Below are positions 30,747 to 62,085 of a DNA stretch of 64,000 nt, piece after piece. Each line of letters starts with the position of its first letter. The first letter of the stretch is position 1. Made by a program: the position numbers and the translations under genes. The DNA is from Chloroflexota bacterium (GTDB taxonomy: Bacteria > Chloroflexota > Limnocylindria > Limnocylindrales > CSP1-4): contig SCUO01000093.1 of the NCBI GenBank assembly GCA_004297395.1, positions 1-64,000 of the forward strand, written 5' to 3'. The notes under the pieces were generated by a model that saw only the letters and a program-made list of their open reading frames with translations, did not search any database and was not told where the DNA came from.

Positions 30747-30788
30747 GGCGGCGTCACTCCTGGCGCGCTGGTTGATCACGGTGGTCGA

Positions 30789-33545: not shown

Positions 33546-33583
33546 CGGTCGGCTCCTCGGGGCTTCGCGGGCTTCGAACGGGA

Positions 33584-38095: not shown

Positions 38096-38147
38096 TCTCC
38101 ATCTGCATCGACCTCCGTCCGCACTGCGTCCCGAAGGAGCATCGGCG

Positions 38148-42632: not shown

Positions 42633-42652
42633 CCCCGAAGGAGCAGCCAGCC

Positions 42653-45744: not shown

Positions 45745-46526
45745 GCGCCGTGACAGCCCCCGGGCTCCGCCTGGACCTCGACGGCCCGATCGCCACGATC
45801 ACGATCGACCGACCCGAGAAGCTCAACGCCATGACCCCCGGGATGCTCGAGGGCCTGGAGTCGCTGCTGGCCTCCATCGAGGCGGACGCGGACATCCGCG
45901 TCGTCGTGCTGACCGGTGCCGGGGAGCGGGCGTTCTGCGCGGGCGCCGACATCGATGCCTGGTCGGCGCTTGCCCCGATCGACATGTGGCGCAGCTGGGT
46001 GCGGCTGGGCCACCGGGTCGTGGATCGGCTGGAGGGTCTGCGTCAGCCCACGATCGCCGCCTTGAACGGCGTTGCCTTCGGCGGCGGACTCGAGCTCGCG
46101 CTCGCCTGCGACCTTCGGATCGCGGCCGACACCGTGACCCTGGCTGCACCCGAGGTGGGGATCGCCACGATCCCGGGCTGGGGCATGACGACCCGTCTCG
46201 CCGTGGTGGCCGGACCGGCGCGCGCCAAGCAGATGATCCTCACCGGCGAGCGGATCGATGCCCGGCGCGCCGAAGCCTGGGGCGTTCTCTCGGAGGTGGT
46301 GCCCACGGCGGAGCTCCAGGACGCCGTTCGCCGCACGGCCGAGCGCATCGCGGCAGGGGCTCCCGTCGCCGTCCAGGTCGCCAAGCAGCTGATCGACGGC
46401 CTCCGGCCGCGCGCGTCCGCGTCGCTCGAGGCACTGGGCAGCGGTCTGACGGCCTTCACCGACGATGCCAGCGAAGGCCGGGCCAGCTTCCGCGAGCGCC
46501 GTCAGGCCCGGTTCAAGGGGTCGTGA
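45741..46526 (+). CDS. Enoyl-CoA hydratase/isomerase (crotonase family)
   Basis: 261 residues. 'ATITIDRPEKLNAMTPGMLEGL', 'VVLTGAGERAFCAGADIDAW' (first oxyanion-hole strand), 'PTIAALNGVAFGGGLELALACDLRIAAD' (second oxyanion-hole Gly) and 'PEVGIATIPGWGMTTRLAVVAG'. The crotonase Glu at the 'ELAL' position is present, but the second Glu of classical hydratases (usually PE-x-x-x-G-x-x-P-G) is only partly conserved, so isomerase or other activity is possible. ATG overlaps the CoA-transferase stop. Last large gene of a coupled run from kdgK. Confidence 0.88.
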   Translation: MSAVTAPGLRLDLDGPIATITIDRPEKLNAMTPGMLEGLESLLASIEADADIRVVVLTGAGERAFCAGADIDAWSALAPIDMWRSWVRLGHRVVDRLEGLRQPTIAALNGVAFGGGLELALACDLRIAADTVTLAAPEVGIATIPGWGMTTRLAVVAGPARAKQMILTGERIDARRAEAWGVLSEVVPTAELQDAVRRTAERIAAGAPVAVQVAKQLIDGLRPRASASLEALGSGLTAFTDDASEGRASFRERRQARFKGS

Positions 46527-46731: not shown

Positions 46732-47691
46732 ATGAATCGAAAGCTAGCCACGGTTGCCGCCCTTGCGGCGGTGGCGATCCTTGTGGGGGCCTGCGGTGGT
46801 GGCGCCTCCCCCTCTGCCGGCAAGCCCAAGCTCACCTTCGTCGCACAGATCGACAACCCGTCCCAGGGCTTCTCTTGGAAGATGTACCAGAAGAACGCCG
46901 AGAAGTACGGCTTCGAGGTCTCAGTCTGCGACAACAAGAACGACGTCCAGCAGCAGACCACCTGCATCAACGACGCGGTCGCGGCGGGCGCCAAGGCCAT
47001 CGCGATCAACCCCAAGGACGAGATGGGCTACGTTCCCGCCACGAAGGCGGCCATGGAGAAGGGCGTGGTCGTTTGCCTCAGCATGGTGCCACCGGCTGCG
47101 GACGCGATCGACGGCTCCACCTGCTCGGTGAGCGTGGATGACATCCTCGGCGGCCAGACCGCCGCGGAAGCCATCATGGCGTTCTTTCCGGACGGCGCCA
47201 CCGGCGTCGAGATCGGCGGCCAGGGGGGCCACGTCGCCGCGAACAACCGCCACGAAGGCTTCAGCAAGGGCATCGAAGGCAAGAACATCGAGGTCCTGGA
47301 CTACCAGAACCCGACGGCGTGGGACACCGCCGAGGCCCAGGCCATCGCCGAAGACATGATCACCAAGTACGGTGACCAGATCCAGTTCGTCTTCTGCCAC
47401 TGGGACAACGGTGCCACCGGCGTCATCAACGCCCTCAAGGCCGTCAACGAGCCGTGGGCGGAAGATGTCCTGATCATCGGCGTCGATGGCAACAAGGTCG
47501 GCTTCCAGCAGGTCGAGAGCTGGAAGAACTACATCTCGATCGCCCAGAACGCCGAGACGATCACCTCGAAGGTCATGGAGCAGTCGATGCTCTGGATCAA
47601 GAAGGATCCCGCGGCGGTCAAGGCGAACATCATTCCGTTCGACATCATCAACAAGGAGACCATCGGGAACTTCACCGCTCCCGAGTGGTGA
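46732..47691 (+). CDS. Sugar ABC transporter substrate-binding lipoprotein
   Basis: 319 residues. Lipobox 'ILVGAC' with lipid-attached Cys21, then a type-1 binding protein of the RbsB/Peripla_BP_4 family: 'LTFVAQIDNPSQGFSWKMYQKNAEKYGF', 'CINDAVAAGAKAIAINPKDE', 'VFCHWDNGATGVINALKAV', 'IIGVDGNKVGFQQVESWK'. It binds a sugar or polyol outside the membrane and delivers it to the permeases downstream. A strong hairpin separates it from the ATPase gene, the usual arrangement for making more binding protein than transporter. Confidence 0.92.
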   Translation: MNRKLATVAALAAVAILVGACGGGASPSAGKPKLTFVAQIDNPSQGFSWKMYQKNAEKYGFEVSVCDNKNDVQQQTTCINDAVAAGAKAIAINPKDEMGYVPATKAAMEKGVVVCLSMVPPAADAIDGSTCSVSVDDILGGQTAAEAIMAFFPDGATGVEIGGQGGHVAANNRHEGFSKGIEGKNIEVLDYQNPTAWDTAEAQAIAEDMITKYGDQIQFVFCHWDNGATGVINALKAVNEPWAEDVLIIGVDGNKVGFQQVESWKNYISIAQNAETITSKVMEQSMLWIKKDPAAVKANIIPFDIINKETIGNFTAPEW

Positions 47692-47705
47692 GAGCCTGAT
47701 CAACA

Positions 47706-47736
47706 GAGGGACCCCATCCACCGGGTGGGGTCCCTC
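47706..47736 (+). terminator. Hairpin between binding-protein and ATPase genes
   Basis: GAGGGACCCCA (47706-47716) pairs perfectly with TGGGGTCCCTC (47726-47736) around a 9-nt loop. It lacks a T-run, so it is more likely a 3'-end-protecting or partial terminator structure than a full stop. Confidence 0.7.
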
Positions 47737-47822
47737 GGATTTCCCTGCCGCCGACCCGGCCACGGCGCAAGCTCCACGGCAGAGAAATCCGGCGTCGGTC
47801 ACCGGCGACAGAGGAGACATCG

Positions 47823-49331
47823 ATGGTCGTGGCGAGCGCGCCTGAGGCCCCGAGCGCCCCTGAGGCCCTGCTCCACGTCAAGGACGTGAGCAAGGCCTTC
47901 CCCGGTGTCAAGGCACTGGACCGGGTCACCCTCGACGTCCGCCCCGGCCGCGTGCACGGCATCGTCGGCGAGAACGGAGCCGGCAAGTCCACGCTCATGA
48001 AGATCCTGTCGGGGGTCTATGAGAAGGACAGCGGGGAGATCGTCTTCGAAGGCAACGTGATCGACAAGATCACGCCCGTTCAGTCCATGAACATGGGGCT
48101 GAGCATCATCTACCAGGAGCTCAACCTGGTGAACACGATGACCGTCGGGGAGAACATCTTCCTCGGCAGGTTCAGCGAATCGGGCGGCAGGGCCGGCGTG
48201 CACGCCAAGGCCAAGGCCCTCCTGAAGAGCATCGGCTCCAAGGTCAGCACCTACCGTCAGGTGTCCGAGCTCAGCGTCTCGGACAAGCAGATGGTGGAGA
48301 TCGCCAAGGCCCTGTCCTTCGACTCGAAGCTCATCATCATGGACGAGCCGAGCAGCAGCCTCACCGCGGATGAGATGGAGAAGCTCGTCCAGATCATCCA
48401 TGACCTCAAGAGCAAGGGCATCGCGATCATCTACATCTCGCACAAGCTGGACGAGATCTTCGGCTTCTGCGACGTCGTCACCGTCATGCGCGACGGCCGC
48501 GTGATCGCCACCCGGGACGTCAGCTCCATCACCCGCAACGAGATGATCTCGATGATGGTGGGCAGGACCATCGAGAACGAGTTTCCGCCTCGGCCGGACT
48601 GCGCCGGCGAGACGATCCTCGAGATCAAGAACATCAACACCAGGAAGCTCAAGGACGTCAAGCTCACCCTCAGGAAGGGCGAGATCCTGGGCCTGGTGGG
48701 GCTGGTTGGCTCGGGGCGCACGGAGCTCGTGAGAGCCCTGTTCGGGGCGGACAAGGTCGCGAAGAAGAGCATCTATCTCGAGGGCAGGCCGGTCAAGATC
48801 AGCAGCCCGATGGACGCGATCCGGCTGGGTCTGGCCATGGTGCCGGAGGACCGGAAGCTCCAGGGCCTCCTGCTCGGGTTCTCGGTCGAGCAGAACATCT
48901 CCCTGGCCGTCCTGGCCAGATTGACGGAGTACGGCTTCATCAACACCAAGGAAGAGGCGGCCGTCGGCGATCGACAGATCAAGGCCCTCAATGTCAGGAC
49001 GCCGTCCGCGAAGACCAAGATCCGGACGCTGTCGGGCGGCAACCAGCAGAAGGCGATCCTGGGCCGGTGGCTCGAGATGAGCCCGAAGGTCCTCGTCCTG
49101 GACGAGCCGACCAAGGGCGTCGATGTCGGCGCCAAGTACGAGATCTACTTGCTGATGAAGAAGATCGTGGAAGCCGGCGGGGCGATCATCCTGATCTCGT
49201 CCGAGCTTCCGGAGGTCCTCAACATGAGCAACCGGGTCAACACCATCTGCGAGGGTCGAATCAACGGTGAGTTCGACCCGGTCACCGCTTCCGCCGACGA
49301 GATCATGGCCAAGGCCTTCGAATTCGCATGA
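47823..49331 (+). CDS. Sugar ABC transporter ATP-binding protein (RbsA/MglA type)
   Basis: 502 residues, two fused ATPase domains. Domain 1: Walker A 'GENGAGKSTLMKIL', 'SVSDKQMVEIAKALS', Walker B 'LIIMDEPSSSLTADEM'. Domain 2: the degenerate Walker A 'GLVGLVGSGRTELVRALFG' and 'LSGGNQQKAILGRWLEMSP' with 'VLVLDEPTKGVDVGAKYEIY'. It powers import with the two permeases that follow. AGGAG precedes the ATG, and the stop overlaps the first permease start by 4 nt. Confidence 0.94.
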   Translation: MVVASAPEAPSAPEALLHVKDVSKAFPGVKALDRVTLDVRPGRVHGIVGENGAGKSTLMKILSGVYEKDSGEIVFEGNVIDKITPVQSMNMGLSIIYQELNLVNTMTVGENIFLGRFSESGGRAGVHAKAKALLKSIGSKVSTYRQVSELSVSDKQMVEIAKALSFDSKLIIMDEPSSSLTADEMEKLVQIIHDLKSKGIAIIYISHKLDEIFGFCDVVTVMRDGRVIATRDVSSITRNEMISMMVGRTIENEFPPRPDCAGETILEIKNINTRKLKDVKLTLRKGEILGLVGLVGSGRTELVRALFGADKVAKKSIYLEGRPVKISSPMDAIRLGLAMVPEDRKLQGLLLGFSVEQNISLAVLARLTEYGFINTKEEAAVGDRQIKALNVRTPSAKTKIRTLSGGNQQKAILGRWLEMSPKVLVLDEPTKGVDVGAKYEIYLLMKKIVEAGGAIILISSELPEVLNMSNRVNTICEGRINGEFDPVTASADEIMAKAFEFA

Positions 49332-50332
49332 GTGCCGCAACGCAGCCGGTCGGTCGTCGGGTGAGCCCGCGAGCAGCGGGCGACTTCCTGAAGAACAACC
49401 CCATCTACGTTGCGATCGCCCTGCTGGTGATCGTCACGTCGGTCGTTGAACCCAAGTTCCTGACCCTCAACAATTTCGACAACATCGTCCGGCAGTTCGG
49501 GGTGCTGATCTTCGCCGCCCTCGGGATGACCTTCGTGATCATGGCGGGGTTCCTCGACCTCTCCATCGGCGGCATCATCTCCCTGGTGGCCGTGGTGACG
49601 GTCACCCTGATCGACCCCATCGGGCAGGGCCCCGCGATCCTGGTCGGCCTCGCCGTCGGCCTGGCCTGCGGGCTGCTCAACAGCATCTTGATCGTCGCGA
49701 GCGGTGCCTTGACGCAGGCGGAGTCGCTGTTCATCACCTTCGGCATGAGCCTGGTCTATGGCGCGGTCGCCCTGATGTATGTCCAGGGCGTCACGCAGTT
49801 CCTGACCTACTCGGAGTCGGATATTTCGATCTTCGAGGCGCTCAACTCGGGCCAGATCGGGTTCCTGTCCGTCGCCACCGTGGTGTTCCTCGTCTGTCTG
49901 GCAATCCTCGCGGTGATCGAGAAACGGACCTACATGGGACGGTCGGTCGTGCTCACCGGGGGTAACAAGGTCGCGGCCCGCCTGGCCGGGATCCCGATCA
50001 GCAGGACGATCGTGATGATCTACGCGATCTCCGGCTTGCTGTCGGCGATCGGTGCGATCGTCCTGATCTCGCGAGTCACGCTGGCCGACCCGACGATGGG
50101 AACGCCCTACATGACCCAGGCCATCCTCGCGGTCGTGGTGGGTGGCACGGCATTGATCGGCGGCCGAGGCAGTGTCCTCTGGACGGTCGCCGGAGCGTTC
50201 CTGTTGATCCTCCTGAACAACTGCCTGAACCTCCTGGGCGTGTCGTCGTACGTGCAGTTCATGATCTGGGGCGTGGTCCTGATCGCCGTGATCTGGCTGG
50301 ATGCGGTGAAAGAAACGCGGGTGAGCGGCTAG
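49328..50332 (+). CDS. Sugar ABC transporter permease (RbsC family) 1
   Basis: 334 residues with about eight to ten TM helices. 'FAALGMTFVIMAGFLDLSIGGIISLVAVV' is the BPD_transp_2 signature (GxxDLSIG); 'GNKVAARLAGIPISRTIVMIYAISGLLSA' and 'AVVVGGTALIGGRGSVLWTVAGAFLL' are typical of RbsC-like permeases. ATGA overlap with the ATPase; the next permease begins 2 nt after its stop. Confidence 0.92.
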   Translation: MSAATQPVGRRVSPRAAGDFLKNNPIYVAIALLVIVTSVVEPKFLTLNNFDNIVRQFGVLIFAALGMTFVIMAGFLDLSIGGIISLVAVVTVTLIDPIGQGPAILVGLAVGLACGLLNSILIVASGALTQAESLFITFGMSLVYGAVALMYVQGVTQFLTYSESDISIFEALNSGQIGFLSVATVVFLVCLAILAVIEKRTYMGRSVVLTGGNKVAARLAGIPISRTIVMIYAISGLLSAIGAIVLISRVTLADPTMGTPYMTQAILAVVVGGTALIGGRGSVLWTVAGAFLLILLNNCLNLLGVSSYVQFMIWGVVLIAVIWLDAVKETRVSG

Positions 50333-50334
50333 CC

Positions 50335-51348
50335 ATGAATACACGCCAGCTCAACCTGAACTCACGCATCCGCAGCTCGTCGAGGACCGTCCTCGGGCTA
50401 CAGAAAGCGTTTCTGGCCATCCTCCTGGTCGTCCTCGCGATGGCTGTGTTCAACCTGATCCCAGAGACGAGGAACAACTTCTTCTCCGAGGCCAACTTCA
50501 TCAACATCCTGAAGTCGGCGTCGATCTTCCTCATCCTGGCGATGGGCGAGACGGTGGTCCTGATCGCCGGCGGCGTCGACCTGTCGATCGGCGGCATGAT
50601 GGCGTTCTCGGGTGTCGTCGTGATCCTGCTGATGAACGCCGGCGTGCCGATCCCGGTCGCAATCGCCCTCACCCTCCTGATGGGGGTCGCGGTCGGCGCG
50701 GTCAACGCGTTCATCTCCGTCTACCAGCGAGCCGAGCCGTTCATCATCACCCTCGGCATGGGGATCGTGCTGACCGGCGCAGCGCAGCAATTGACGAATG
50801 CCCGTTCGGTGTCGAGTACCCTCCCGGACTTCCAGCTCATCGCGAACACCCAGATCCTCGGCTGGGTGCCGATCCTCGTCGTCGTGATGCTCGCCGTGCT
50901 GGCCGTCACCTACTGGATGCTTCGGAGCACATCGTTCGGCAGGAACGTCTACGCCGTGGGCGGCGATTACGAGGTCGCGAAATACTCGGGCATCAACGTC
51001 CGGCGGACGAAGGCGGCGACCTACCTCATCTGCGGCCTGACAGCCGCGCTCGGCGGCGTGATGCTGGCCTCGCAGCTCAACTCGGCGAGCTCGATCGCCG
51101 GGGAGAACACCGCGCTGTACGTCGTATGCGCCGTCGTCGTAGGCGGGACATCCGTGGCCGGAGGCGTCGGCGGCGCCATCAAGTCGACCATCGGTCTGCT
51201 CCTTCTCGGCCTCCTGACGAATGCCTTCAACCAGCTGCGGATCGACTCCCTGGTGTCGTATCTGTCCACGGCCCTCCTGGGCATCATCATCGTGTCGATC
51301 CTGTGGCTCGACAGCTACGGGCGAAAGCGCCGCCGGGAAGCCGTCTGA
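50335..51348 (+). CDS. Sugar ABC transporter permease (RbsC family) 2
   Basis: 337 residues. 'ILAMGETVVLIAGGVDLSIGGMMAFSGVV' and 'GGDYEVAKYSGINVRRTKAATYLICGLTAALGG' show the same family, but the sequence is clearly different from permease 1. The importer is therefore probably an RbsC heterodimer rather than the more common homodimer. Stop at 51348 is followed by about 330 nt without a gene. Confidence 0.92.
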   Translation: MNTRQLNLNSRIRSSSRTVLGLQKAFLAILLVVLAMAVFNLIPETRNNFFSEANFINILKSASIFLILAMGETVVLIAGGVDLSIGGMMAFSGVVVILLMNAGVPIPVAIALTLLMGVAVGAVNAFISVYQRAEPFIITLGMGIVLTGAAQQLTNARSVSSTLPDFQLIANTQILGWVPILVVVMLAVLAVTYWMLRSTSFGRNVYAVGGDYEVAKYSGINVRRTKAATYLICGLTAALGGVMLASQLNSASSIAGENTALYVVCAVVVGGTSVAGGVGGAIKSTIGLLLLGLLTNAFNQLRIDSLVSYLSTALLGIIIVSILWLDSYGRKRRREAV

Positions 51349-51675: not shown

Positions 51676-53196
51676 ATGACCTCGCAGACTGACGGCTCCA
51701 CGATCTCCACCGACATCGCCATCATCGGCAGCGGCATGGGCGGCGGCACCCTCGCCTACGCCCTCCGGAATCACGGCGCCAGGGTGCTCATCGTGGAACG
51801 GGGCGGCTACCTGCCCCGCGAGCCCGAGAACTGGAACCCGACCGCCGTCTTCGGCGAGAGTCGGTACCGCACGACCGAGCATTTCCTCGACGAGCACGGC
51901 AAGCCCTTCAGGGCGTCGATCTTCTACGGCGTCGGCGGCAACACAAAGGTCTACGGCGCGGCCCTTCCACGCCTGCGCAAGGAGGACTTCGGGGCTCTCG
52001 AGACCGAGGACGGCGTCTCGCCCGCCTGGCCGATCACCTACGAGGAGCTCGAGCCCTACTACGCCGAGGCCGAGCGACTCTTCCGTGTCCACGGGACGAT
52101 GGGTGCCGACCCGATCGAGCCCCCGCGCTCGACGCCCTACCCGTTCCCCGCCGTGCCGCACGAGCCGGTCATCGCGGAGCTGGCGGACAGCTTCACGCAG
52201 CAGGGTCTCAGGCCCTACCCTCTCCAGCTCGGCGTGGACCTGCGCGAGGGAGGCACCTGCATCCGCTGCAAGACCTGCGACGGGTTCCCCTGCCAGGTGC
52301 TTGCCAAGAGCGACGCCGAGACGTGCGTGACGACTCCCGCCCTGGAGTCGCCGAACGTCTCGATGCTGACCCACGCCCGAGCCATCAGGCTCGACACCGA
52401 CGCCACCGGCCAGCGCATCACCGGCCTCGTGATCGACCATGGGGGCGAGCGCAAGACGGTCCTCGCGAAGACCTATGTCCTCGCGACGAGCGCCATCAAC
52501 TCCGCGGCGATGCTCCTCCGCTCGGCATCCGACAAGCACCCAAATGGTCTTGCCAACTCGTCGGGCCTCGTCGGCCGCGGCTTCATGATGCACGTCAACT
52601 CCGCGATGATGGCCCTCCGCCCCAGGGCGAACCCGACCGTCTTCCAGAAGACGCTGGCGGTGAACGACTGGTACTTCGGCGACTCGAAGTCCCGCCTCCC
52701 GATGGGCAACGCGCAGCTGCTCGGCAAGCTCCAGCCCGGCATGCTCGCTGCATCCGTCCCGCTGATGCCCCGGCGGATGCTGGCCGAGGTCGCCGGCCGC
52801 AGCGTCGACTGGTACCTCATGACGGAGGACCTGCCCGACCCGGACAACCGGATCACGCTCGACTCGACGGGGCAGATCGTCATGCGCTGGCGACCGAACA
52901 ACCTCGGCGCCCACAGGCGCCTCACCCGGGCGATGAGCTCGGCGATGCGCCGGGCAGGCTACCCGCTGATCCAGGTCCGTCGACTCGGGATGGATGCGGT
53001 CGCCCATCAGTCCGGCACCCTGCGCTTCGGAGACGACCCGGCGACCTCCGTCCTCGATCCGCTGTGCCGGACGCACGACGTGGCCAACCTGCTCGTCGTG
53101 GACGCGTCATTCCTCCCGTCGTCGGGTGCTCAGAATCCGGCGCTGACCATCGCCGCCCAGGCGCTTCGAGTGGCTGCCGAGGCCGGCTTCAACTGA
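51676..53196 (+). CDS. GMC family FAD oxidoreductase with Cys-rich insert
   Basis: 506 residues. FAD-binding 'IAIIGSGMGGGTLAYALRNHG' at the N-terminus and 'YGVGGNTKVYGAALPRLR'. The C-terminus 'GMDAVAHQSGTLRFGDDP' and 'SSGAQNPALTIAAQALRVA' carry the catalytic His/Asn pair of pyranose-oxidase/dehydrogenase-like GMC proteins. In the middle, 'CIRCKTCDGFPC' plus a further Cys 11 residues on places five Cys within about 23 residues. It oxidises an alcohol of a sugar or glycoside. It lies 58 nt upstream of a second GMC gene. Confidence 0.88.
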   Translation: MTSQTDGSTISTDIAIIGSGMGGGTLAYALRNHGARVLIVERGGYLPREPENWNPTAVFGESRYRTTEHFLDEHGKPFRASIFYGVGGNTKVYGAALPRLRKEDFGALETEDGVSPAWPITYEELEPYYAEAERLFRVHGTMGADPIEPPRSTPYPFPAVPHEPVIAELADSFTQQGLRPYPLQLGVDLREGGTCIRCKTCDGFPCQVLAKSDAETCVTTPALESPNVSMLTHARAIRLDTDATGQRITGLVIDHGGERKTVLAKTYVLATSAINSAAMLLRSASDKHPNGLANSSGLVGRGFMMHVNSAMMALRPRANPTVFQKTLAVNDWYFGDSKSRLPMGNAQLLGKLQPGMLAASVPLMPRRMLAEVAGRSVDWYLMTEDLPDPDNRITLDSTGQIVMRWRPNNLGAHRRLTRAMSSAMRRAGYPLIQVRRLGMDAVAHQSGTLRFGDDPATSVLDPLCRTHDVANLLVVDASFLPSSGAQNPALTIAAQALRVAAEAGFN

Positions 53197-53254
53197 TCCC
53201 CCCACGCCCACGCTCCTTCGATCGTCGTTCACCACGTTCCCGGAGGACCGCCGG

Positions 53255-54853
53255 ATGAGCCAGCGCTACACCCACATCGTCGTCGGCGCCGGGGCGGCCG
53301 GCTGCGCCGTCGCCGCGCGCCTGAGCGAGGTTCCGGACAATCGGGTCCTCCTCCTCGAGGCCGGGGGGCCGGACAGCAATCCGCTCATCCACATGCCGGC
53401 CGGCTTCACCAAGCTCACCGGCCCGAGCGTGAACTGGGGCTTCCAGACCGTCCCACAGTCGCAGTTGAATGACCGCCGGATGCACTACCCGCAGGGGCGC
53501 ACGCTCGGTGGCAGCACATCGATCAACGCCATGATCTACATCCGCGGCCACCGCCTCGACTACGACGCGTGGCATGACCTCGGCAACGAGGGCTGGGGCT
53601 ACGACGGCGTCCTGCCGTACTTCACGAAGTCCGAGAACAACGAGCGGCTCGTCAACGAGTTCCACGGCACCGGGGGCCCGCTCAACGTCACCGAGCAGGT
53701 CGGGCACAACCCGATCACGAAAGGGTTCGTGCGCTCGCTGCAGTCGCTGGGCATCCCGTTCACCCACGACTTCAATGGCGCCGAGCAGGACGGCGTGGGC
53801 TACTACGACGTCACCCAGCGCAACGTCCGCCGCGAGAGCGCGGCGACCGCGTTCCTCCGTCCGGCCAAACGCCGCAGGAACCTCGTCGTCGAGACCCACG
53901 CAATGGCCACCAGGGTCCTCGTGGACGGGGACCACGCGGTCGGCGTCCAGTACATCTACCGTGGCAAGCCGGCCGAGGTGCGGATCGAGGCGGGCGGCGA
54001 GGTCGTCCTCTCGGGTGGTGCCGTCAACTCACCGCGCTTGCTGCTCCTGTCGGGCATCGGCCCGGCGGACGAGCTCCGCGCCCTCGGGATCGAGGTGGTT
54101 CACGACCTGCCAGGGGTCGGCAAGAACTTCCAGGACCACATGGACGTGTACCTGACCGCCGAGACCGCGCCGGTGAGCTACAACGGCGAGGACCGCTGGG
54201 ACAAGGCGGCCCGCCATGGGATCCAGTACCTGCTCTACAAGACGGGGCCGGTCACGGCGTGCGTCGCCGAGGCGGGTGCCTTCCTGCGCTCGAGCAGCGA
54301 CGTCCGATCGCCGGACATCCAGATTCACTGTCTGCCCGCCTACGTGGTCGACCATGGTCGGATGCGGATCAAGGGCCACGGCGTCACGATCAACACCTGC
54401 AACCTGCGGCCCAGGAGCATCGGCTCGGTGACGCTCCGGTCATCGGACCCTACCGTGGAGCCGGCGATCGACCCGGCGTTTCTCCAGGACCCACACGACT
54501 GGACGATCTCCATGGAGGGCTTCGAGCGCGGGCGCGAGATCATCCACGCCCCTGCCTTCAAGGACCTGATCCGGAGGGAGCGCCTGCCGGGCAGTGACGT
54601 GAAGTCGGAGAAGGGCATCCGGGAGTACATCAAGCAGTGGTCGAAGACCGACTACCACCCGGTCGGCTCCTGCAAGATGGGCGGCGACCCGATGGCCGTC
54701 GTCGATACCCAGCTGCGCGTCCACGGCATGGCCGGCCTGCGTGTCATCGACGCCTCGATCATGCCGACCCTCATCTCCGGCAACACCCAGGCGCCCTCGA
54801 TCATGATCGGCGAGAAGGGTGCCGCGATCATGCGCGCCGGCAGGGTCGTCTGA
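53255..54853 (+). CDS. GMC family oxidoreductase (choline/alcohol dehydrogenase-like)
   Basis: 532 residues. 'IVVGAGAAGCAVAARLSE' binds FAD, 'QGRTLGGSTSINAMIYIRGH' is GMC signature 1, 'SGGAVNSPRLLLLSGIGPAD' is signature 2, and 'DYHPVGSCKMG' plus 'ISGNTQAPSIMIGEKGA' hold the catalytic His and Asn. It oxidises a primary or secondary alcohol, substrate unknown. The pair of unlike GMC genes suggests two oxidation steps or positions. It is followed after 58 nt by a Gfo/Idh gene. Confidence 0.92.
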   Translation: MSQRYTHIVVGAGAAGCAVAARLSEVPDNRVLLLEAGGPDSNPLIHMPAGFTKLTGPSVNWGFQTVPQSQLNDRRMHYPQGRTLGGSTSINAMIYIRGHRLDYDAWHDLGNEGWGYDGVLPYFTKSENNERLVNEFHGTGGPLNVTEQVGHNPITKGFVRSLQSLGIPFTHDFNGAEQDGVGYYDVTQRNVRRESAATAFLRPAKRRRNLVVETHAMATRVLVDGDHAVGVQYIYRGKPAEVRIEAGGEVVLSGGAVNSPRLLLLSGIGPADELRALGIEVVHDLPGVGKNFQDHMDVYLTAETAPVSYNGEDRWDKAARHGIQYLLYKTGPVTACVAEAGAFLRSSSDVRSPDIQIHCLPAYVVDHGRMRIKGHGVTINTCNLRPRSIGSVTLRSSDPTVEPAIDPAFLQDPHDWTISMEGFERGREIIHAPAFKDLIRRERLPGSDVKSEKGIREYIKQWSKTDYHPVGSCKMGGDPMAVVDTQLRVHGMAGLRVIDASIMPTLISGNTQAPSIMIGEKGAAIMRAGRVV

Positions 54854-54911
54854 CCGTCCCCCGACACCGATTCGCGACGCACGCATCGACGACAGCTCGA
54901 GGAGGAGCACC

Positions 54912-55907
54912 ATGGCCGCGCTTCGTTGGGGGTTGATCGGCGCCAGCGATGTCGCCGCCACGCGAATGATCCCGGCGATGCGCCGGCTCGGCCACGAGGT
55001 GGCGGGGGTGGGAGACCCGACGCCCGACTGGGCGGCCACGTACGCCGAGCGCAATGGCATCCCGTTCTCGGGCACGGTCGAGGAGCTGGCGGCGCGCGAC
55101 GACGTCGATGCCGTCTACATCAGCACGAAGAACGAGTACCACCGTGACCATACCCTGCTGGCGGCCGCCGCCGGCAAGCACGTCCTGTGCGAGAAGCCAC
55201 TGGCACTCTCCGCCGACGACGGGCGGCGGATGGTCGACGCGTGCGAGGCGGCCGGAGTCATCCTGGGCACCAACCACCACCTCCCCGGCGCCGGCACGCA
55301 CAGCAAGGTCCGAGAGCTCGTCGCCGGCGGAGCGGTGGGCCGCGTCCTGGCCGTGCGCGTCTTCCATGCGGTCATGCTTCCCGAGCGACTGCAGGGCTGG
55401 CGCCTCGGCAGCCGGGCGGGCGGCGGGGTCGCCCTCGACGTCACCTGCCACGACGCGGCCGTGATCAACCCGCTCCTTGGCGCGCTCCCGGTCGACCTCG
55501 TGGCGCTCGCGACGCACCAGGGCCCCTGGGAGGCGGCCGCCGAGGACGCCCTGATGTCGACGATGCGGTACGCGGACGGCACGCTGGTCCAGACGCATGA
55601 CGCCTTCACGGTCCAGTACGCCCCGACCGGTCTCCACGTGATCGGGTCGGACGGCGCGATCTTCGCGACGGCCGTCATGACCCAGGACCCGATCGGGACG
55701 GTCGTGCTCCGCGACGCCTCCGGCGAGCGGGAGATCGAGGTCGCTAACCGGCGCGACCTGTACGAGATCAGCGTCGGCGGCTTCGCCGCGGCGGTGAGCG
55801 GCGAGTCCGAGCGACCGGTCGTCACCGGCCTCGACGGGCTGCGCGCCGCCCAGGTGGCGCTCGCGGTCAGGCAGGCCGCGGAGAGCGGCGAGCGCGTCGT
55901 CCTCTAG
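54912..55907 (+). CDS. Gfo/Idh/MocA family oxidoreductase (2 of 3)
   Basis: 331 residues. 'LRWGLIGASDVAATRMIPAMR' (NAD(P) fold), 'VYISTKNEYHRDHTLLAAAAGKHVLCEKPLAL' (EKP), 'GGGVALDVTCHDAAVINPLLG' (active-site Asp/His). The short form resembles 1,5-anhydro-D-fructose reductase and D-xylose dehydrogenase relatives. ATG 54912 follows GGAGGAG. It is probably in one transcript with the two GMC genes. Confidence 0.9.
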   Translation: MAALRWGLIGASDVAATRMIPAMRRLGHEVAGVGDPTPDWAATYAERNGIPFSGTVEELAARDDVDAVYISTKNEYHRDHTLLAAAAGKHVLCEKPLALSADDGRRMVDACEAAGVILGTNHHLPGAGTHSKVRELVAGGAVGRVLAVRVFHAVMLPERLQGWRLGSRAGGGVALDVTCHDAAVINPLLGALPVDLVALATHQGPWEAAAEDALMSTMRYADGTLVQTHDAFTVQYAPTGLHVIGSDGAIFATAVMTQDPIGTVVLRDASGEREIEVANRRDLYEISVGGFAAAVSGESERPVVTGLDGLRAAQVALAVRQAAESGERVVL

Positions 55908-55987: not shown

Positions 55988-56785
55988 ATGGATCGAGACG
56001 CGGTCTGCCGGTACCTCGCGTCGACCAACATCGAGCACGCAACGCTGCAGTTCTGCGAGCGATTCGATGAGAAGAGCCGCATCTGGAACTTCAGCAAGCA
56101 CTCGCACCCGTTCTTCGAGCTGATCTTCTTCCTCGAAGGCCGGGCCAACATCGACGCGGGTGACGAGTCCGTGGACGTCCTCGGCTTCGACGTCCTGATC
56201 TACCCGCCGGGCCTGGAACACGCCGAGCACCTCGACCTGCGCCATCGGCAGGAGATCATCTGTCTCTGGGCGGACACCGGGCCCACCGGGTCGTTCGACC
56301 ATGCGATCAAGCTCATGGACGAGCGCGGCACACTGCGCTCGCTGTTCGAGATGGTGTACGACGAGTTCACGACCAACCGCCCGTTCTCGCCCGACCTTAT
56401 CTCGTGCTACCTCCAGGCCATCTTCCTCCAGGTGCGGCAGCACTTCTCCGAGCCATCCCGCGACGCCAGCACGCTCGTCGAGCGCTGCCTCGGGTTCATC
56501 CACGAGCACTATGCCCGGGACTTCGACATCGGGGAGCTGGCGCGACAGGTCTCGGTCAGCCCGAGCTACCTGTTCCGACTCTTCAAGAAGAAGATGCACG
56601 TCACGCCGATGCACTATCGGAACATCGTCCGCCTCGACAAGGCGAAGCTGCTCCTCGCCGACCAGGCGCTCACCGTCGACGACGTCGCCGAGCGCGTCGG
56701 ATACGAGGACCCCAAGTACTTCTCGCGCGTCTTCCGGGATCTCGTGGGCGTGTCGCCGAGCGCCTACCGCAAGGAACGCCTCTGA
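55988..56785 (+). CDS. AraC family transcriptional regulator
   Basis: 265 residues. The N-terminal cupin has 'FSKHSHPFFELIFFLEGRANI' and 'VLIYPPGLEHAEHLDL'. The C-terminal double HTH has 'DIGELARQVSVSPSYLFRLFKKKM' and 'VDDVAERVGYEDPKYFSRVFRDLVGVSPSAYR'. It probably senses a sugar or small acid and activates the glycyl radical operon that begins 125 nt downstream, and perhaps itself through the direct repeats. Confidence 0.92.
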   Translation: MDRDAVCRYLASTNIEHATLQFCERFDEKSRIWNFSKHSHPFFELIFFLEGRANIDAGDESVDVLGFDVLIYPPGLEHAEHLDLRHRQEIICLWADTGPTGSFDHAIKLMDERGTLRSLFEMVYDEFTTNRPFSPDLISCYLQAIFLQVRQHFSEPSRDASTLVERCLGFIHEHYARDFDIGELARQVSVSPSYLFRLFKKKMHVTPMHYRNIVRLDKAKLLLADQALTVDDVAERVGYEDPKYFSRVFRDLVGVSPSAYRKERL

Positions 56786-56910: not shown

Positions 56911-59283
56911 ATGACCGTGGCGCAGCAACCGGCGGTGACGGGCCCGACCGAGCGCATTCGCGGCCTGAAGGAGCGGATGCTCGACGAGCCGCGGTACCTC
57001 TCGATCGAGCAGGCGCTGATCGTCACCGACGTCTACCAGGCCCACGAGGGCGAGACCGCCGCGGTCAAGCGGGCGCTGTCGCTCGCCGAGGCGATGCGCC
57101 GCATCGAGATCCACGTCGACCCCGACGAGCTGATCGTCGGCAACCGCACGACCGGCGTCCGCGCCGGCGTCGTCTTCCCCGAGGCCGGGATCAGCTGGAT
57201 CGACCGCGAGCTCGACACGATGTCGAGGCGGCCGCAGGACAGGTTCAATGTCCGCCCCGAGGACGCGGCAACGTTCCGCGCGCGGATTCTCCCGTACTGG
57301 CAGGGCAGGACCCTCGAGGACACGCTCCGTGCCGAGGACGGGCCGCTCCTCGACGCCATCGCCCGCGTGGTCAAGATCAACCAGAAGGACCATGCCCAGG
57401 GTCACATCTGCCCCGACACGGCCAAGTGGATTCGGCTGGGGCCCGCCGGAATCCGCGCCGAGGCGGCGGCCAGGGCGGTCTTCGCGACGCCCGATCAGCG
57501 CGAGTTCTACGACTCGGTCCTGATCGTCCTCGACGCATCGATGGACTTCATGCGCCGCTACGCCGACCTCGCCGGCGAGATGGTCGCGACGGCCGACTCG
57601 CCGGAGCGCGCCGCTAACCTCCGCGAGACCGCCCGCATCTGCAGCAAGCTCGCCGAGGGCGGCGCGGAGACCTTCCGGGAGGCCGTCCAGGCGCTCTGGT
57701 TCCTGTTCGCGCTGCTCCACCTCGAGAGCAACGCTTCGTCGTTCTCGCCCGGGCGCGCGGACCAGTACCTCTATCCCTACTACCTGGCCGACATCGAGGC
57801 CGGCCGCCTGGACCGGGCGGGCGCCCTCGAGCTCATCGAGGCGCTGTGGCTCAAGTTCAACCAGATCGTCTACCTCCGGAACTCGCACTCGGCGTCGTTC
57901 TTCGCCGGCTTCCCGATCGGCTTCAACGTCGCCTTCGGCGGCCGCGACGAGGCCGGCCGCGACGAGTCCAACGAGCTGTCCCACCTGTTCCTCGAGGCGC
58001 AGAGCCACATCCTCCTGCCGCAGCCCAACCTGTCGGCCCGGCTCCACGAAGGCACCCCGGACGCGCTCCTCGACGAGTGCACCAGGGTCATCGGCCTGGG
58101 ATCGGGCATGCCGCAGGTTTTCAACGACGAATCGATCATTCCCGCCCTCGAGGCGCAGGGCATCGCCCCCGCCGACGCGGTCAATTACTCGATCGTCGGC
58201 TGTGTCGAGCTCTCCACCCACGGGAACAACCTCGGCTGGTCGGACGCCGCGATGTTCAACCTCGTCAAGGCGCTCGAGCTCGCCATGAACGACGGCAAAT
58301 GCCTGCTGAGCGGCGCACAGCTTGGCCCACGGACCGGCTATCTCACCGACTTCGCCAGCTACGAGGACCTCGAGGCGGCCTTCGCGGTCCAGATCGACTA
58401 CTTCTTCGAGAAGATGATCGAGGCATGCGAGAAGGTCGAGGAGATCCACCAGCGGCTCCTGCCCTCGGCGTTCCTCTCGTCCGTCATCGACGACTGCCTC
58501 GACCGTGGCCTCGACGTCACCCGCGGCGGCGCGCACTACAACCTGTCCGGCATCCAGGTCATCCAGGTGGCCAACGTCGCCGACAGCCTGGCCGCCGTCA
58601 AGAAGCTGGTTTACGACGAGGGCACGGTGGACAGGGCCCGGCTCGTGGCCGCGCTCCAGACGAACTACGAGCATGACCCGGAGCTGGCACGGATCCTGAT
58701 CAACAAGGCCCCCAAGTACGGCAACGACGTCGAGTGGGTGGACGCCATCGGCAACAAGTGGGTCCACTACTTCGCTCGCAAGTTCGAGGGCCGCACCAAC
58801 TACCGCGGTGGTCGCTACCACACCGGGCTGTACACCGTCAGCGCGCATGTCCCGATGGGTGCCAACGTCGGCGCGACCCCCGACGGCCGCCCGGCCGGCG
58901 CCCCCCTCGCGGACGGTGGCATGTCGGCCGTCTACGGTCGCGATCGCCGCGGGCCGACGGCGCTGCTCTCGTCCGTGGCCCGGGTGGATTCGTACCTTGG
59001 CAGCAACGGCACGCTTCTCAACATGAAGTTCCTGCCGCGCCTGTTCAAGTCCCAAGAAGGGTCCCAGGCGTTCGCCTCGATGCTGCGCGGCTTCGTGAAG
59101 CTGGGCATCAACCACGTCCAGTTCAACGTCGTCACCCGTGACGACCTGATCGCCGCCCAGAAGGAACCCGACAAGTACCGCAATCTGACCATCCGGGTCG
59201 CCGGGTACACCGCCTACTTCACCGAGCTCGCCGAGGATCTCCAGAACGAGATCATCGCCCGGACGAGCTACGAGGACTCGTGA
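56911..59283 (+). CDS. Glycyl radical enzyme, dehydratase-like (PFL-like family)
   Basis: 790 residues. The thiyl-radical Cys431 is in 'NYSIVGCVELSTHGNN' with general-base Glu433 two residues on and Asp445 at C+14, as in glycerol and propanediol dehydratases. 'GHICPD' (His165) matches their substrate-binding His; 'SSFSPGRADQYLYPYY' is the family barrel motif. Glycyl radical site: 'IRVAGYTAYF' (Gly765), 25 residues from the end. It probably removes water (or another leaving group) from a vicinal diol, but the substrate is not assignable; 'CVELS' instead of the common CVEP argues against the best-known classes. Oxygen-sensitive once activated. Its stop overlaps the activase start. Confidence 0.9.
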   Translation: MTVAQQPAVTGPTERIRGLKERMLDEPRYLSIEQALIVTDVYQAHEGETAAVKRALSLAEAMRRIEIHVDPDELIVGNRTTGVRAGVVFPEAGISWIDRELDTMSRRPQDRFNVRPEDAATFRARILPYWQGRTLEDTLRAEDGPLLDAIARVVKINQKDHAQGHICPDTAKWIRLGPAGIRAEAAARAVFATPDQREFYDSVLIVLDASMDFMRRYADLAGEMVATADSPERAANLRETARICSKLAEGGAETFREAVQALWFLFALLHLESNASSFSPGRADQYLYPYYLADIEAGRLDRAGALELIEALWLKFNQIVYLRNSHSASFFAGFPIGFNVAFGGRDEAGRDESNELSHLFLEAQSHILLPQPNLSARLHEGTPDALLDECTRVIGLGSGMPQVFNDESIIPALEAQGIAPADAVNYSIVGCVELSTHGNNLGWSDAAMFNLVKALELAMNDGKCLLSGAQLGPRTGYLTDFASYEDLEAAFAVQIDYFFEKMIEACEKVEEIHQRLLPSAFLSSVIDDCLDRGLDVTRGGAHYNLSGIQVIQVANVADSLAAVKKLVYDEGTVDRARLVAALQTNYEHDPELARILINKAPKYGNDVEWVDAIGNKWVHYFARKFEGRTNYRGGRYHTGLYTVSAHVPMGANVGATPDGRPAGAPLADGGMSAVYGRDRRGPTALLSSVARVDSYLGSNGTLLNMKFLPRLFKSQEGSQAFASMLRGFVKLGINHVQFNVVTRDDLIAAQKEPDKYRNLTIRVAGYTAYFTELAEDLQNEIIARTSYEDS

Positions 59284-60188
59284 CCACGGGCCGGGTCTTC
59301 GATATCCAGCGGTTCTCCGTCCACGACGGACCCGGGATACGGACCACGGTCTTCCTCAAGGGCTGCCCGCTTCGCTGCCGGTGGTGCCAGAACCCGGAGG
59401 GATTGGAGCGGGCGATCTCGCTCTGGCACTTCGAGAACCTCTGCGGCCGCACGGGCCACTGCCAGGACGTCTGCCCGACTGGGGCGATCACCCTCACGCC
59501 CGTCGGCGTCGAGATCAACCATGCGGCCTGCACGCTCTGCGGCGACTGCGTCGAGGTCTGCCCGAACAACGCCCTCGCTTTCGACGGTCGGGACATCACC
59601 ACCGACGAGGTCCTTGCCGAAGTGTCCCGCGACGCGATCTTCCACGAGGTCTCCGGCGGCGGGGTGACTTTCTCGGGCGGCGAGCCCCTGGCCCAGCCGG
59701 CGTTTGTTCGCGACACCGCGGCGGCGCTCAAGTCCCGGGGCCTGCCGACCACGCTCGAGTCGTCGTTCCACGCGCCGTGGTCCTCCATCGAGCCGCTGCT
59801 CCCGGTCATCGACCTGTTCATCGTGGACGTCAAGGTTGCGGATCCAGCGGCGCACCGCGTCGCCACCGGCGTTTCGAACGAGCTGATCCTGGACAACCTC
59901 CGCCGCCTTACCAAGGCGCTCCGGGGCGAAGGGCGGATCCTGGTCCGCGTGCCACTGATCCCGGGCTACACGGCGACGCCCGAGAACCTGGGGGCGATCG
60001 CGGACCTGCTGGTGGCAGTTGACCCGTCGCTGCCCGTCGAGCTGATGAACTTCAACCCCCTCGCGAGCGCGAAGTACCGCCGGATGGGGATGGCGTACGA
60101 GTTCGCCGACGCCGCCAGAGCGTATTCGCCGGCCGAGATGGCCGGGTTCCAATCGTTGTTCGCCGAGCGTGGCCTCACCGTGCGGTGA
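59280..60188 (+). CDS. Glycyl radical enzyme activating enzyme (radical SAM)
   Basis: 302 residues. The radical SAM cluster motif is 'FLKGCPLRCRWCQNPEG' (CxxxCxxC). A ferredoxin-like insert holds two further Cys sets ('CGRTGHCQDVC', 'CTLCGDCVEVCPNNAL'), the form typical of activases for dehydratase-type enzymes. 'VTFSGGEPLAQPAF' is the GGE SAM motif. It uses SAM to place the radical on Gly765 of the neighbouring enzyme. GTG 59280 overlaps that gene's stop (GTGA). Confidence 0.94.
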   Translation: MTTGRVFDIQRFSVHDGPGIRTTVFLKGCPLRCRWCQNPEGLERAISLWHFENLCGRTGHCQDVCPTGAITLTPVGVEINHAACTLCGDCVEVCPNNALAFDGRDITTDEVLAEVSRDAIFHEVSGGGVTFSGGEPLAQPAFVRDTAAALKSRGLPTTLESSFHAPWSSIEPLLPVIDLFIVDVKVADPAAHRVATGVSNELILDNLRRLTKALRGEGRILVRVPLIPGYTATPENLGAIADLLVAVDPSLPVELMNFNPLASAKYRRMGMAYEFADAARAYSPAEMAGFQSLFAERGLTVR

Positions 60189-60219: not shown

Positions 60220-62085
60220 ATGAGCAGCGTCGTCCGCGATCTGGTCGACGCCGCCAAGGGCGGCCGGCCCGTCTACATCAGCACCGTTCGCGAGCGCCTC
60301 GAGGGGCTGGACCCAGCCGCATCGTTCCGGGTGACGGCCACCCTCCAGGGCTTCGACGCACGCGTCCGTGCCTTCTCATTCGCGTTGCCGAAGTTCGCCT
60401 CGCTCGCCTTCGACGAGCGGGCGATGATCATCGAATACGTGCTCGCGAGCCTCTACAACATCATCTCGACGGTCGGCGGCCGGGGTCTGACGCTCGAGAC
60501 GAGCGACGACGACGGCGACGGGGTGGAGCTCGCGGCGATCTTCGAACAGGAGTTTGGCATCGGCCTGGCCCGTCTCGACCGGCCCGGCTACGGCCGGGCC
60601 ATCAACGTCGCCGAGCGCATGGACGAGGCGGTGTCCCCGGAGGGCACGCCGGACCGGGGCATGTTTCGGCTGGCCAGGCGGATGCCCTCCGAGTCACGCG
60701 AGATGCCCGTGTCTCGGGCCGGCCCAGGAGGCAGCATCGCGGAGCTCTGCGACCGTTCCCGACAAGGTCTAGTCGGCGCTGCGATCTGCGGCATCGACGT
60801 CGGTGGTACGGACATCAAGCTCTGCCTCGCTGTCGACGGTCAGGTCGCGAGCTTCCTCGAGTACGACTGGTTCCCCGCCGCGTTCACCGCCGTCGACCAG
60901 ATCATCGACCCCATTGTGCTTTTGGTCCGCCTCCTGCGGCTCGACGGCGCTTGTGCCCGGGGCCTGCCCAACACCGCCGCCGTCGCCGAGGTGCTCCAAC
61001 CGGCCTTCGGCCGTGGAGCGTCATTGGCGGTGATCGAGGCTGCTGTACGCGCCGGGGAGGCGCTCCTCGCCGAGCCGTTCGCGCTCGACGCCATCGGCGT
61101 CTGCTTCCCGGACGTCGTGGTGCGCGACAAGATCGTCGGCGGCGAGGTATACAAGACGCGCGGGATGCGAGACCACCTGGGGGCTGCCTACGAAGGCGAG
61201 TTCCGGCGTCTCTCGAGCCTGAGCGAGGAGCTGCGCACCTTCGTGAGGCCTGGCGGCGTCGTGGGGATCGTCAACGACGGGCCGATGGCTGCCTTCACTG
61301 CCACCGTCGAGCTCGGAGCCGCAGCCCCAGCATCGATCAAGGACGGCGTCTTCGCGCACACGCTCGGGACGGAGCTCGGGTCGGGATGGGTGACCGAGGA
61401 CGGCGAGATCCCGGAGATCCCCCTCGAGATCTACAACTGCATCCTTGATCTGGGCAGCTACCCGGAGCGCGCGTTCGCGCCCGACGACGTGCGCAGCGTC
61501 AACAACTTCAACACCCGGCTGGCCGGGACGCTCCAGAAGTACACCAGCCAGAGCGGGGTCTTCAGGCTCGCGGCCAAGTACCTGCCGGAGCAGGACCCCG
61601 CGCTCTACGCAGAGCTGCTCGACCGCGGCCTGCTCGAGGGCTCCCCGTCGGGCCTGTTCGTCCCGACCGAGCCCAGGGACATGCGGAAGCCGCTCCTGGA
61701 GCTCCTCATGGCGGCTGCCGAGGCGGGCGGGCACCCGGCCGTCGACCGGATCTTCCGCGAGGTCGGCGAGTTCATGGCCGTCGCCTGGCTTGAGTCGAAG
61801 TGGCTGCTCGACCCGGCCGTCGCTCAGCGCATCCTGTTCGGCCGCCTGGTCAAGCGCCGCGTGTGTTTCGACCTGATGGTCGAAGGCGCCCGCTCGATCG
61901 CCCCGTCGCTCGTGCTCGAAGTCGCCGACGACGAGATGGCGAACACCGACCTCATGCGCCAGCTCCGCGACAGCGATCGGTACACGGTGGCCCAGTTCGC
62001 CCAGGCGATCGGGGCCATCCACTACGCCAACTACCGGCGCAATGCGGCGTCGGTTGCCGCCCCGATGACGAGCGGGGCATCGTGA
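60220..62085 (+). CDS. Large ROK-like (ASKHA) sugar kinase
   Basis: 621 residues, about twice a normal ROK kinase. An unassigned N-terminal domain (1 to about 195) comes first. Then 'CGIDVGGTDIKLCLAVDG' (phosphate-1), 'GVVGIVNDGPMAAFTATVELG' (ROK ENDAN-like region) and 'AHTLGTELGSGWVTEDGEIP' (phosphate-2/hinge). The ROK zinc motif CxCGxxGCxE is not seen. It probably phosphorylates a sugar or anhydro-sugar for the glycyl radical branch. ATG 60220 is chosen by domain start; the ORF is open to 60169. The stop shares a base with the next ATG (TGATG). Confidence 0.72.
   Translation: MSSVVRDLVDAAKGGRPVYISTVRERLEGLDPAASFRVTATLQGFDARVRAFSFALPKFASLAFDERAMIIEYVLASLYNIISTVGGRGLTLETSDDDGDGVELAAIFEQEFGIGLARLDRPGYGRAINVAERMDEAVSPEGTPDRGMFRLARRMPSESREMPVSRAGPGGSIAELCDRSRQGLVGAAICGIDVGGTDIKLCLAVDGQVASFLEYDWFPAAFTAVDQIIDPIVLLVRLLRLDGACARGLPNTAAVAEVLQPAFGRGASLAVIEAAVRAGEALLAEPFALDAIGVCFPDVVVRDKIVGGEVYKTRGMRDHLGAAYEGEFRRLSSLSEELRTFVRPGGVVGIVNDGPMAAFTATVELGAAAPASIKDGVFAHTLGTELGSGWVTEDGEIPEIPLEIYNCILDLGSYPERAFAPDDVRSVNNFNTRLAGTLQKYTSQSGVFRLAAKYLPEQDPALYAELLDRGLLEGSPSGLFVPTEPRDMRKPLLELLMAAAEAGGHPAVDRIFREVGEFMAVAWLESKWLLDPAVAQRILFGRLVKRRVCFDLMVEGARSIAPSLVLEVADDEMANTDLMRQLRDSDRYTVAQFAQAIGAIHYANYRRNAASVAAPMTSGAS

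Follow-up and report, generated by a model that had tools for sequence, protein, structure and literature searches.

The first 64 kb of a 252-kb contig (SCUO01000093.1, positions 1 to 64,000) of a Chloroflexota metagenome-assembled genome (GCA_004297395.1; 3.08 Mb, 85% complete), hereafter called the window, contain a gene cluster with two GMC oxidoreductases (GMC1 and GMC2) and a Gfo/Idh-family protein homologous to 1,5-anhydro-D-fructose reductase (AFR). 1,5-Anhydro-sugars are stable relatives of sugars, 1,5-anhydroglucitol (AG) being an example. We suggest that the cluster degrades 1,5-anhydro-D-sugars with 1,5-anhydromannitol (AM) as the hub, and assign this reading a probability of roughly 0.55. 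We have good confidence in the AFR identity and in the anhydrosugar chemistry of the cluster.

In the proposed scheme, GMC1 would oxidize AG at C2 to 1,5-anhydrofructose (AF), and AFR would reduce AF to AM, with C2 inverted. In the oxidative branch, GMC2 and an aldehyde dehydrogenase (ALDH) would turn the C6 CH2OH group of AM into a carboxylate, ALDH taking the C6 aldehyde step. A CoA-transferase would then make the thioester of the anhydro-uronate, a crotonase would remove the C5 hydrogen and the 4-hydroxyl to give a 4,5-unsaturated anhydro-uronate, and a GH88-type enzyme would add water across the enol ether. The resulting hemiketal would open to 2-keto-3-deoxy-D-gluconate (D-KDG), which KDG kinase and KDPG aldolase would convert to pyruvate and glyceraldehyde-3-phosphate. 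In an anaerobic accessory branch, AM would be phosphorylated by one of the kinase candidates of the cluster, GntK or a 621-aa protein, after which a glycyl radical enzyme of the PflD type would open the resulting 1,5-anhydromannitol-6-phosphate (AM6P) to 1-deoxyfructose-6-phosphate. From gene content, homology, conserved catalytic residues and cross-phylum linkage we infer the substrates and order of GMC1, GMC2, ALDH, CoA-transferase, crotonase and GH88, as well as the choice of kinase. The odds that the oxidative branch reaches D-KDG through a CoA ester, crotonase and GH88 appear to be even.

The AFR homologue and its GMC neighbors

GMC1 (506 aa, 51676–53196), GMC2 (532 aa, 53255–54853) and the AFR homologue (54912–55907) are intact, adjoining genes, all on the forward strand, whose open frames have a strong coding signal and which are separated by two gaps of 58 bp each. 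The GTG start listed for the AFR homologue (54819) overlaps GMC2; the ATG at 54912 is the likely start, given that the homologues have their N-terminus at the Rossmann strand (xRWGLIGAS). All three proteins have clear Pfam matches (GMC_oxred_C 67 bits and GMC_oxred_N 43 bits for GMC1; GMC_oxred_N 175 bits and GMC_oxred_C 131 bits for GMC2; GFO_IDH_MocA 85 bits plus C-terminal domains for AFR). The same order is kept in four other genomes of the family (G469, G379, G409 and G406), with identities of 74–89% for GMC1, 83–89% for GMC2 and 73–83% for AFR; the arrangement is therefore not due to chance.

In the PDB, the Gfo/Idh protein best matched two 1,5-anhydro-D-fructose reductases, 2GLX from Sinorhizobium morelense (3e-85) and 4KOA (9e-85); the next best match had an E-value of 7e-24. 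The window protein is 47% identical to 2GLX over the whole length, contains the equivalents of the catalytic Lys94 and His180, and clusters with AFRs, outside of which fall two other Gfo/Idh proteins of the window (GfoA and GfoB, 25% identical). Instead of Ser33/Arg38, the NADPH-type pair of the reference and of nearly all other copies, it has Asp33/Trp38. This pair is also present in three of the four relatives, and G469 has kept Ser33 together with Trp38. S33D reportedly gives NADH use in AFR, and these residues suggest that the window AFR clade has switched from NADPH to NADH. Considering that the loss of Ser33/Arg38 is a cofactor change, we treat the protein as an AFR homologue that is expected to use another cofactor, and Ser33/Arg38 as not essential to the family. 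S. morelense is known to grow on AF and to make AM (PMC12441222). Formation of AF from starch by alpha-1,4-glucan lyase (GH31) was rejected, since no GH31 gene was found in this genome (85% complete), and AF is thus probably not made in the host by such a lyase.

The best solved relatives of GMC1 are fructose and glucose dehydrogenases (E-values from 1e-41 to 3e-35). Over its length it matched the large subunit of fructose dehydrogenase (FDH; 4e-41) and FAD glucose dehydrogenase (GDH; 3e-35), and pyranose oxidases matched the C-terminus only, with E-values near 1e-7. GMC1 retains the His and Asn of the GMC pair, and its Cys-rich stretch, CIRCKTCDGFPC, aligns with a Cys-rich stretch of FDH; this stretch is absent from the GMC1 homologues of Sinorhizobium and Microvirga. 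The small and cytochrome subunits of FDH/GDH are not found beside GMC1, whose neighbors are an ABC permease and GMC2, and we therefore do not class it as part of such a complex. GMC2 belongs to the choline-dehydrogenase/alcohol-oxidase group (PRK02106, 599 bits, just below the cut-off of 605). GMC1 is proposed as a candidate 1,5-anhydroglucitol 2-dehydrogenase and GMC2 as a candidate C6 primary-alcohol dehydrogenase. Pyranose oxidase, another GMC enzyme, has a clinical use in the oxidation of AG at C-2 (PMC4870767).

A first-pass annotation of this DNA, made from the sequence alone, had pointed to the contiguity of two unlike GMC genes and a Gfo/Idh gene, which holds, and had read them as a candidate 3-keto-glycoside system, in which a glycoside is oxidized at C3 by GMC or Gfo enzymes and eliminated by a TIM barrel to yield an anhydro-sugar for the radical enzyme nearby. 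Another Gfo/Idh gene (GfoA) with a TIM-barrel gene, which it had cited in support, is indeed present (36938–39062, forward strand). GfoA is levoglucosan-dehydrogenase-like (149 bits), and the TIM barrel has weak matches to 2zds (38 bits) and to the 2-hydroxy-3-keto-glucal hydratase 8ro4 (24 bits). In G406 the two share one operon with GfoB and the radical module, on a different contig from GMC1-GMC2-AFR, so that the suspected link to the radical branch was borne out. Against such C3 chemistry, the Gfo/Idh protein at 54912 is of the AFR type (a C2-keto reductase), GMC1 is far nearer to FDH/GDH than to pyranose oxidases, GMC2 is choline-dehydrogenase-like, and neither has a pyranose oxidase or C-glycoside 3-oxidase as its closest relative; moreover, G469 has GMC1-GMC2-AFR, and no GfoA or TIM-barrel gene was found in the region examined there. 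A 3-keto-glycoside role was thus dropped for these three genes, and we consider C3 oxidation very improbable as an account of the cluster; GfoA and the TIM barrel, for their part, may still carry out 3-keto chemistry. Anhydro-sugar chemistry itself was retained, with the difference that the anhydro-sugar would be the substrate of the cluster and not an elimination product.

A conserved module and a predicted route to D-KDG

Upstream of the GMC genes lies a tight row of five forward-strand genes (40891–46526). These encode a PfkB-family KDG kinase (40891–41937; PfkB 111 bits, KDG/KDGal kinase 224 bits), a KDPG/KHG aldolase that overlaps it by 4 bp (41934–42632; PF01081, 113 bits), ALDH (42653–44155; PF00171, 564 bits), an alpha-beta fused CoA-transferase of the acyl-CoA:acetate type (44152–45744; CoA_trans, 105 bits) and an enoyl-CoA hydratase, the crotonase (45741–46526; ECH_1, 182 bits). 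They are followed by an Rbs-type sugar ABC transporter with a binding protein, an ATPase and two permeases (46732–51348, forward). With CoA-transferase, crotonase, ALDH, GH88 and KDG kinase/aldolase as conserved partners, the cluster points to CH2OH oxidation and opening of an anhydro ring rather than to 3-keto-glycoside cleavage.

Searches of plasmids with tblastn found AFR and GMC1 homologues close together. Across phyla, a module of AFR, CoA-transferase, crotonase, ALDH, a sugar ABC transporter, GMC1 and GMC2 was observed. In Microvirga, Peteryoungia, Rhizobium and S. meliloti pSymB, all of these except GMC2 form one run together with a short-chain dehydrogenase/reductase (SDR) gene, and GMC2, glycerate kinase and DUF993 lie beside that run in most of these annotated records. 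The S. meliloti orthologues are 61% (CoA-transferase), 58% (ALDH), 48% (AFR), 46% (crotonase) and 44% (GMC1) identical to the window proteins. The window CoA-transferase is 56–60% identical to proteobacterial operon copies and ALDH 56–58% identical to the rhizobial one, and both catalytic Glu positions of the crotonase are conserved across operon copies. The pSymB AFR is one residue away from 4KOA and closely resembles 2GLX; the module is therefore the genomic context in which a named AFR occurs.

When GTDB genomes were scanned with an alignment of the CoA-transferase, at least 586 relatives were detected, and the loci of the 80 best were read. AFR, CoA-transferase and crotonase occur together in 35 of these 80 loci, and AFR lies less than 400 bp from CoA-transferase in 35 loci. 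Where the flanks were long enough (63 loci), GMC1 and AFR were both present in 25, one without the other in 2 and 4, and both absent in 32 (phi = 0.81); GMC2 co-occurs with ALDH (phi = 0.61). The loci are phylogenetically related, and Fisher P-values therefore overstate the significance of these associations. GMC1 and AFR also form a separate pair in Bradyrhizobium, Pseudomonas and a Paraburkholderia plasmid. The two linkages, together with the stand-alone GMC1-AFR pair, fit two functional units, one for C2 redox chemistry (GMC1, AFR) and one for converting CH2OH to an acid (GMC2, ALDH).

Some loci depart from this arrangement. An Arthrobacter plasmid (L028) carries two AFR-annotated genes and a GMC1 homologue. 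In two loci (L072, 5650–7917; L067, 3920–6181), a single-chain fusion of gluconate-2-dehydrogenase subunit 3 and a GMC protein lies between CoA-transferase and crotonase and apparently stands in for GMC2. Five others (L080, L083, L085, L124 and L127) have CoA-transferase, crotonase, SDR (often with DUF993) and an acyl-CoA dehydrogenase-like gene, with no AFR or GMC genes, and probably serve a pathway whose substrate enters as an acid.

The last enzyme needed before D-KDG is the GH88-type protein (X459; 39086–40465, reverse strand), a homologue of unsaturated glucuronyl hydrolase (UGL) whose Pfam GH88 match (19 bits) is under the cut-off. That sub-threshold match prompted us to predict hydration of a 4,5-unsaturated uronate from the chemistry, before any comparison with the PDB. 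In G469, which belongs to the same genus, KDG kinase, KDPG aldolase, ALDH, CoA-transferase, crotonase, a 379-aa gene, GMC1, GMC2, AFR, AraC and GfoB form one co-directional run without the radical module, and the 379-aa protein matched UGL 1vd5 (4e-52). The window protein, the only UGL in its genome, is 35% identical to this operon copy and retains the equivalents of the catalytic D88/D149 and of H193. The AlphaFold model of the window protein had a pTM of 0.81, and its top 11 PDB folds were all UGL. UGL is located within the operon not only in G469 but also in Thermomicrobiales, Thermoleophilia and Verrucomicrobiota, and it adjoins CoA-transferase and crotonase in further Chloroflexi. We propose, from sequence and model, that the window protein may be the hydratase and ring opener of the 4,5-unsaturated anhydro-uronate.

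A Fischer derivation speaks for AM, and not AG, as the precursor of D-KDG. Through oxidation of C6, loss of the 4-hydroxyl and opening at C5, a 2-keto-3-deoxy acid would be formed in which the former C3 and C2 have become C4 and C5. AM has both hydroxyls on the right and would give D-KDG, and AG would give 2-keto-3-deoxy-L-galactonate (L-KDGal). Inversion of C2 by GMC1 and AFR beforehand would thus provide a substrate for an ordinary KDG kinase and KDPG aldolase, both of which are present.

The same genes could be read as serving ordinary glycosides via C6 uronates, with GMC2 and ALDH oxidizing C6, crotonase making the 4,5-ene, UGL freeing the aglycone and AFR-type enzymes adjusting C2. UGL naturally cleaves unsaturated uronyl glycosides and a homologue is present here, and AFR reportedly reduces other 2-keto sugars as well. 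On the other hand, AFR of the orthologous Sinorhizobium operon is an AF enzyme, the neighboring radical enzyme is of a type that acts on an anhydrohexitol phosphate, and the cluster showed no further enzyme that cleaves glycosides. We regard this glycoside reading as highly unlikely.

A proposed radical branch and its kinase candidates

Downstream of AFR, all on the forward strand, are an AraC-family regulator (55988–56785; HTH_18, 90 bits), the PflD-type glycyl radical enzyme (56911–59283; PFL-like 655 bits, Gly_radical 99 bits), its radical SAM activase (59280–60188; TIGR02494, 300 bits, above the cut-off), the 621-aa protein (60220–62085), GfoB (62085–63206) and a GntK-type kinase, the alternative kinase candidate (63258–63797; TIGR01313, 160 bits). 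Immediately 3' of these genes is a TadA-type secretion ATPase gene (contig positions 63853–65667, running beyond the window end); its location on the opposite strand makes this the likely end of the cluster.

In a comparison of seven sequences, the radical enzyme grouped with E. coli PflD and 8id0 (support 0.98, 41–42% identity), not with YbiW (35% identity) or glycerol dehydratase, and it shares the motifs NQxDxxQGH, GCVELS and ADGG[ML]S with the PflD type. The substrate of PflD is AM6P, and YbiW acts on the glucitol isomer (PMC12441222). We slightly favor AM6P as the substrate of the window enzyme, a candidate AM6P dehydratase. Two independently known reactions, that of AFR, which makes AM, and that of the PflD type on AM6P, would thereby meet at anhydromannitol in neighboring genes.

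In the window, G379 and G409, the genes for the radical enzyme, activase and 621-aa protein are inserted between AraC and GfoB; they are absent from this position in G469, where GfoB stays next to AraC. The 621-aa gene occurs in 4 of 107 family genomes, all of them among the five with AFR, which would happen by chance with a probability of about 1e-6 if the two were independent, three of the four genomes being of one genus. In a sample of 400 genomes of the phylum, the 621-aa gene or the radical enzyme was found at the set cut-offs only in the window genome and G379. That G469 carries GMC1-GMC2-AFR without the radical module would fit two unrelated neighbors, but the restriction of the 621-aa gene to AFR-containing genomes and the convergence of both known reactions on anhydromannitol make such a coincidence quite unlikely.

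The 621-aa protein contains motifs resembling those of ASKHA sugar kinases (GIDVGGTDIK, VNDGPMAAF and LGTELGSGW), and it may be the anhydromannitol 6-kinase, although we consider this assignment doubtful. When it was examined as a ROK kinase, no Pfam family matched, hhalign found a match limited to the phosphate-1 strip (E = 0.02), and the AlphaFold model was unusable (pLDDT 40).

On the reverse strand at 29658–35905, a transaldolase gene lies beside genes for a fused E2-E3 and a fused E1 protein (30789–35905), which are similar to 2-oxo acid/acetoin dehydrogenases. Both radical-enzyme genomes seen, that of the window and G406, have this arrangement; the five others that were examined do not. 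One idea is that the E1/E2/E3 complex might cleave 1-deoxyfructose-6-phosphate to acetyl-CoA and erythrose-4-phosphate, followed by transaldolase. Attractive as it is, we keep it as a mere suggestion, because orthologues of E1 are spread through the family in genomes that lack the radical enzyme.

Alternatives and comparison with known systems

Several points weigh against the proposed pathway. Sequence does not settle the position specificity of GMC1 and GMC2, and the kinase role of the 621-aa protein is read from motifs only. The window UGL is divergently transcribed, is 31–35% identical to other operon UGLs and has one His replaced by Gln (STQQG for GTHQG). Of the 80 loci, only 2 contain both UGL and AFR, to which G469 is added. 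No convincing fructose-6-phosphate aldolase (FSA) was found: the TAL_FSA members of this genome are transaldolase-like, and the nearest homologue, 38% identical to FsaA, has Glu at the position of FsaA Gln59. For Sinorhizobium, conversion of AM to mannose by C1 oxygenation has been proposed (PMC12441222). Finally, UGL and KDG kinase are absent from the proteobacterial versions, where DUF993 and SDR are found instead, implying that the second half of the pathway differs or is misassigned there.

This last point suggests another second half. C2-inverting anhydrosugar use may be correct, with CoA-transferase, crotonase and ALDH serving a sequence that does not form KDG, in which, for example, an SDR of the beta-hydroxyacyl-CoA type oxidizes C4 and the DUF993 TIM barrel performs the cleavage. 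DUF993 (L024, 17462–18622; L055, 7491–8660), annotated as dihydrodipicolinate synthase, is tightly linked to SDR and CoA-transferase/crotonase. It co-occurs with SDR (phi = 0.67), never occurs with UGL (0 of 80 loci), and is also found with SDR in CoA-transferase/crotonase loci without AFR or GMC genes; in addition, glycerate kinase is present in some clusters. The clusters of the window and G469, however, have no SDR or DUF993 and contain UGL, KDG kinase and KDPG aldolase, and we consider this alternative rather unlikely.

According to a 2025 review, an oxidative pathway for AG has yet to be described, as has the enzyme that follows anhydromannitol in Sinorhizobium; the review sees interest in an aerobic AG-degrading enzyme as a way to lower AG in two inherited neutropenias (PMC12441222). 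We found no description of the CoA/crotonase route in the literature, which is weak evidence as most subscription journals were outside our coverage. The oxidative route thus looks previously undescribed, and the oxygen-sensitive radical route beside it is of a known kind. At slightly less than even odds, we suggest a widespread, undescribed aerobic pathway from 1,5-anhydro-sugars to D-KDG, comprising C2 redox inversion, CoA-thioester dehydration and GH88 hydration, to which a glycyl-radical branch has been added in some Chloroflexota for oxic and anoxic use from one locus. The window locus and its orthologues in culturable rhizobia provide named candidate genes for each step, making the missing aerobic pathway testable. 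If the pathway is correct, the C2 inversion by the reductase would have its reason in setting up D-KDG, sugar-acid dehydration would have a CoA-ester route, a GH88 enzyme would have been recruited away from polysaccharides, and some Chloroflexota would use anhydro-sugars with and without oxygen from a single locus.

Among known systems, the Sinorhizobium AFR operon (4KOA/2GLX) likewise combines orthologous AFR, CoA-transferase, crotonase, ALDH and GMC1 genes, and GMC2 and glycerate kinase are located nearby; it differs in its MalFGK-type transporter, SDR and DUF993, in the absence of UGL and KDG kinase from the cluster, and in the S33/R38 pair of its AFR, in contrast to D33/W38 in the window. 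E. coli anhydroglycolysis (PflD/YbiW; Ma et al., as described in PMC12441222) shares the PflD-type radical enzyme, the activase and a nearby AraC-type regulator. It depends on a phosphotransferase system, whereas the window has ABC import and a candidate ATP kinase, no clear FSA aldolase and an accompanying oxidative branch. GMC1 shares whole-length homology and the Cys-rich stretch with the FDH/GDH large subunit, but has no small subunit or cytochrome adjacent, and its homologues in Sinorhizobium and Microvirga lack the stretch. The GH88-type protein shares with UGL (1vd5) the fold, the catalytic Asp pair and, presumably, hydration of a 4,5-enol ether; it differs in being located with CoA-transferase and crotonase rather than polysaccharide lyases, and its proposed substrate would be an anhydro-uronate instead of a glycoside.

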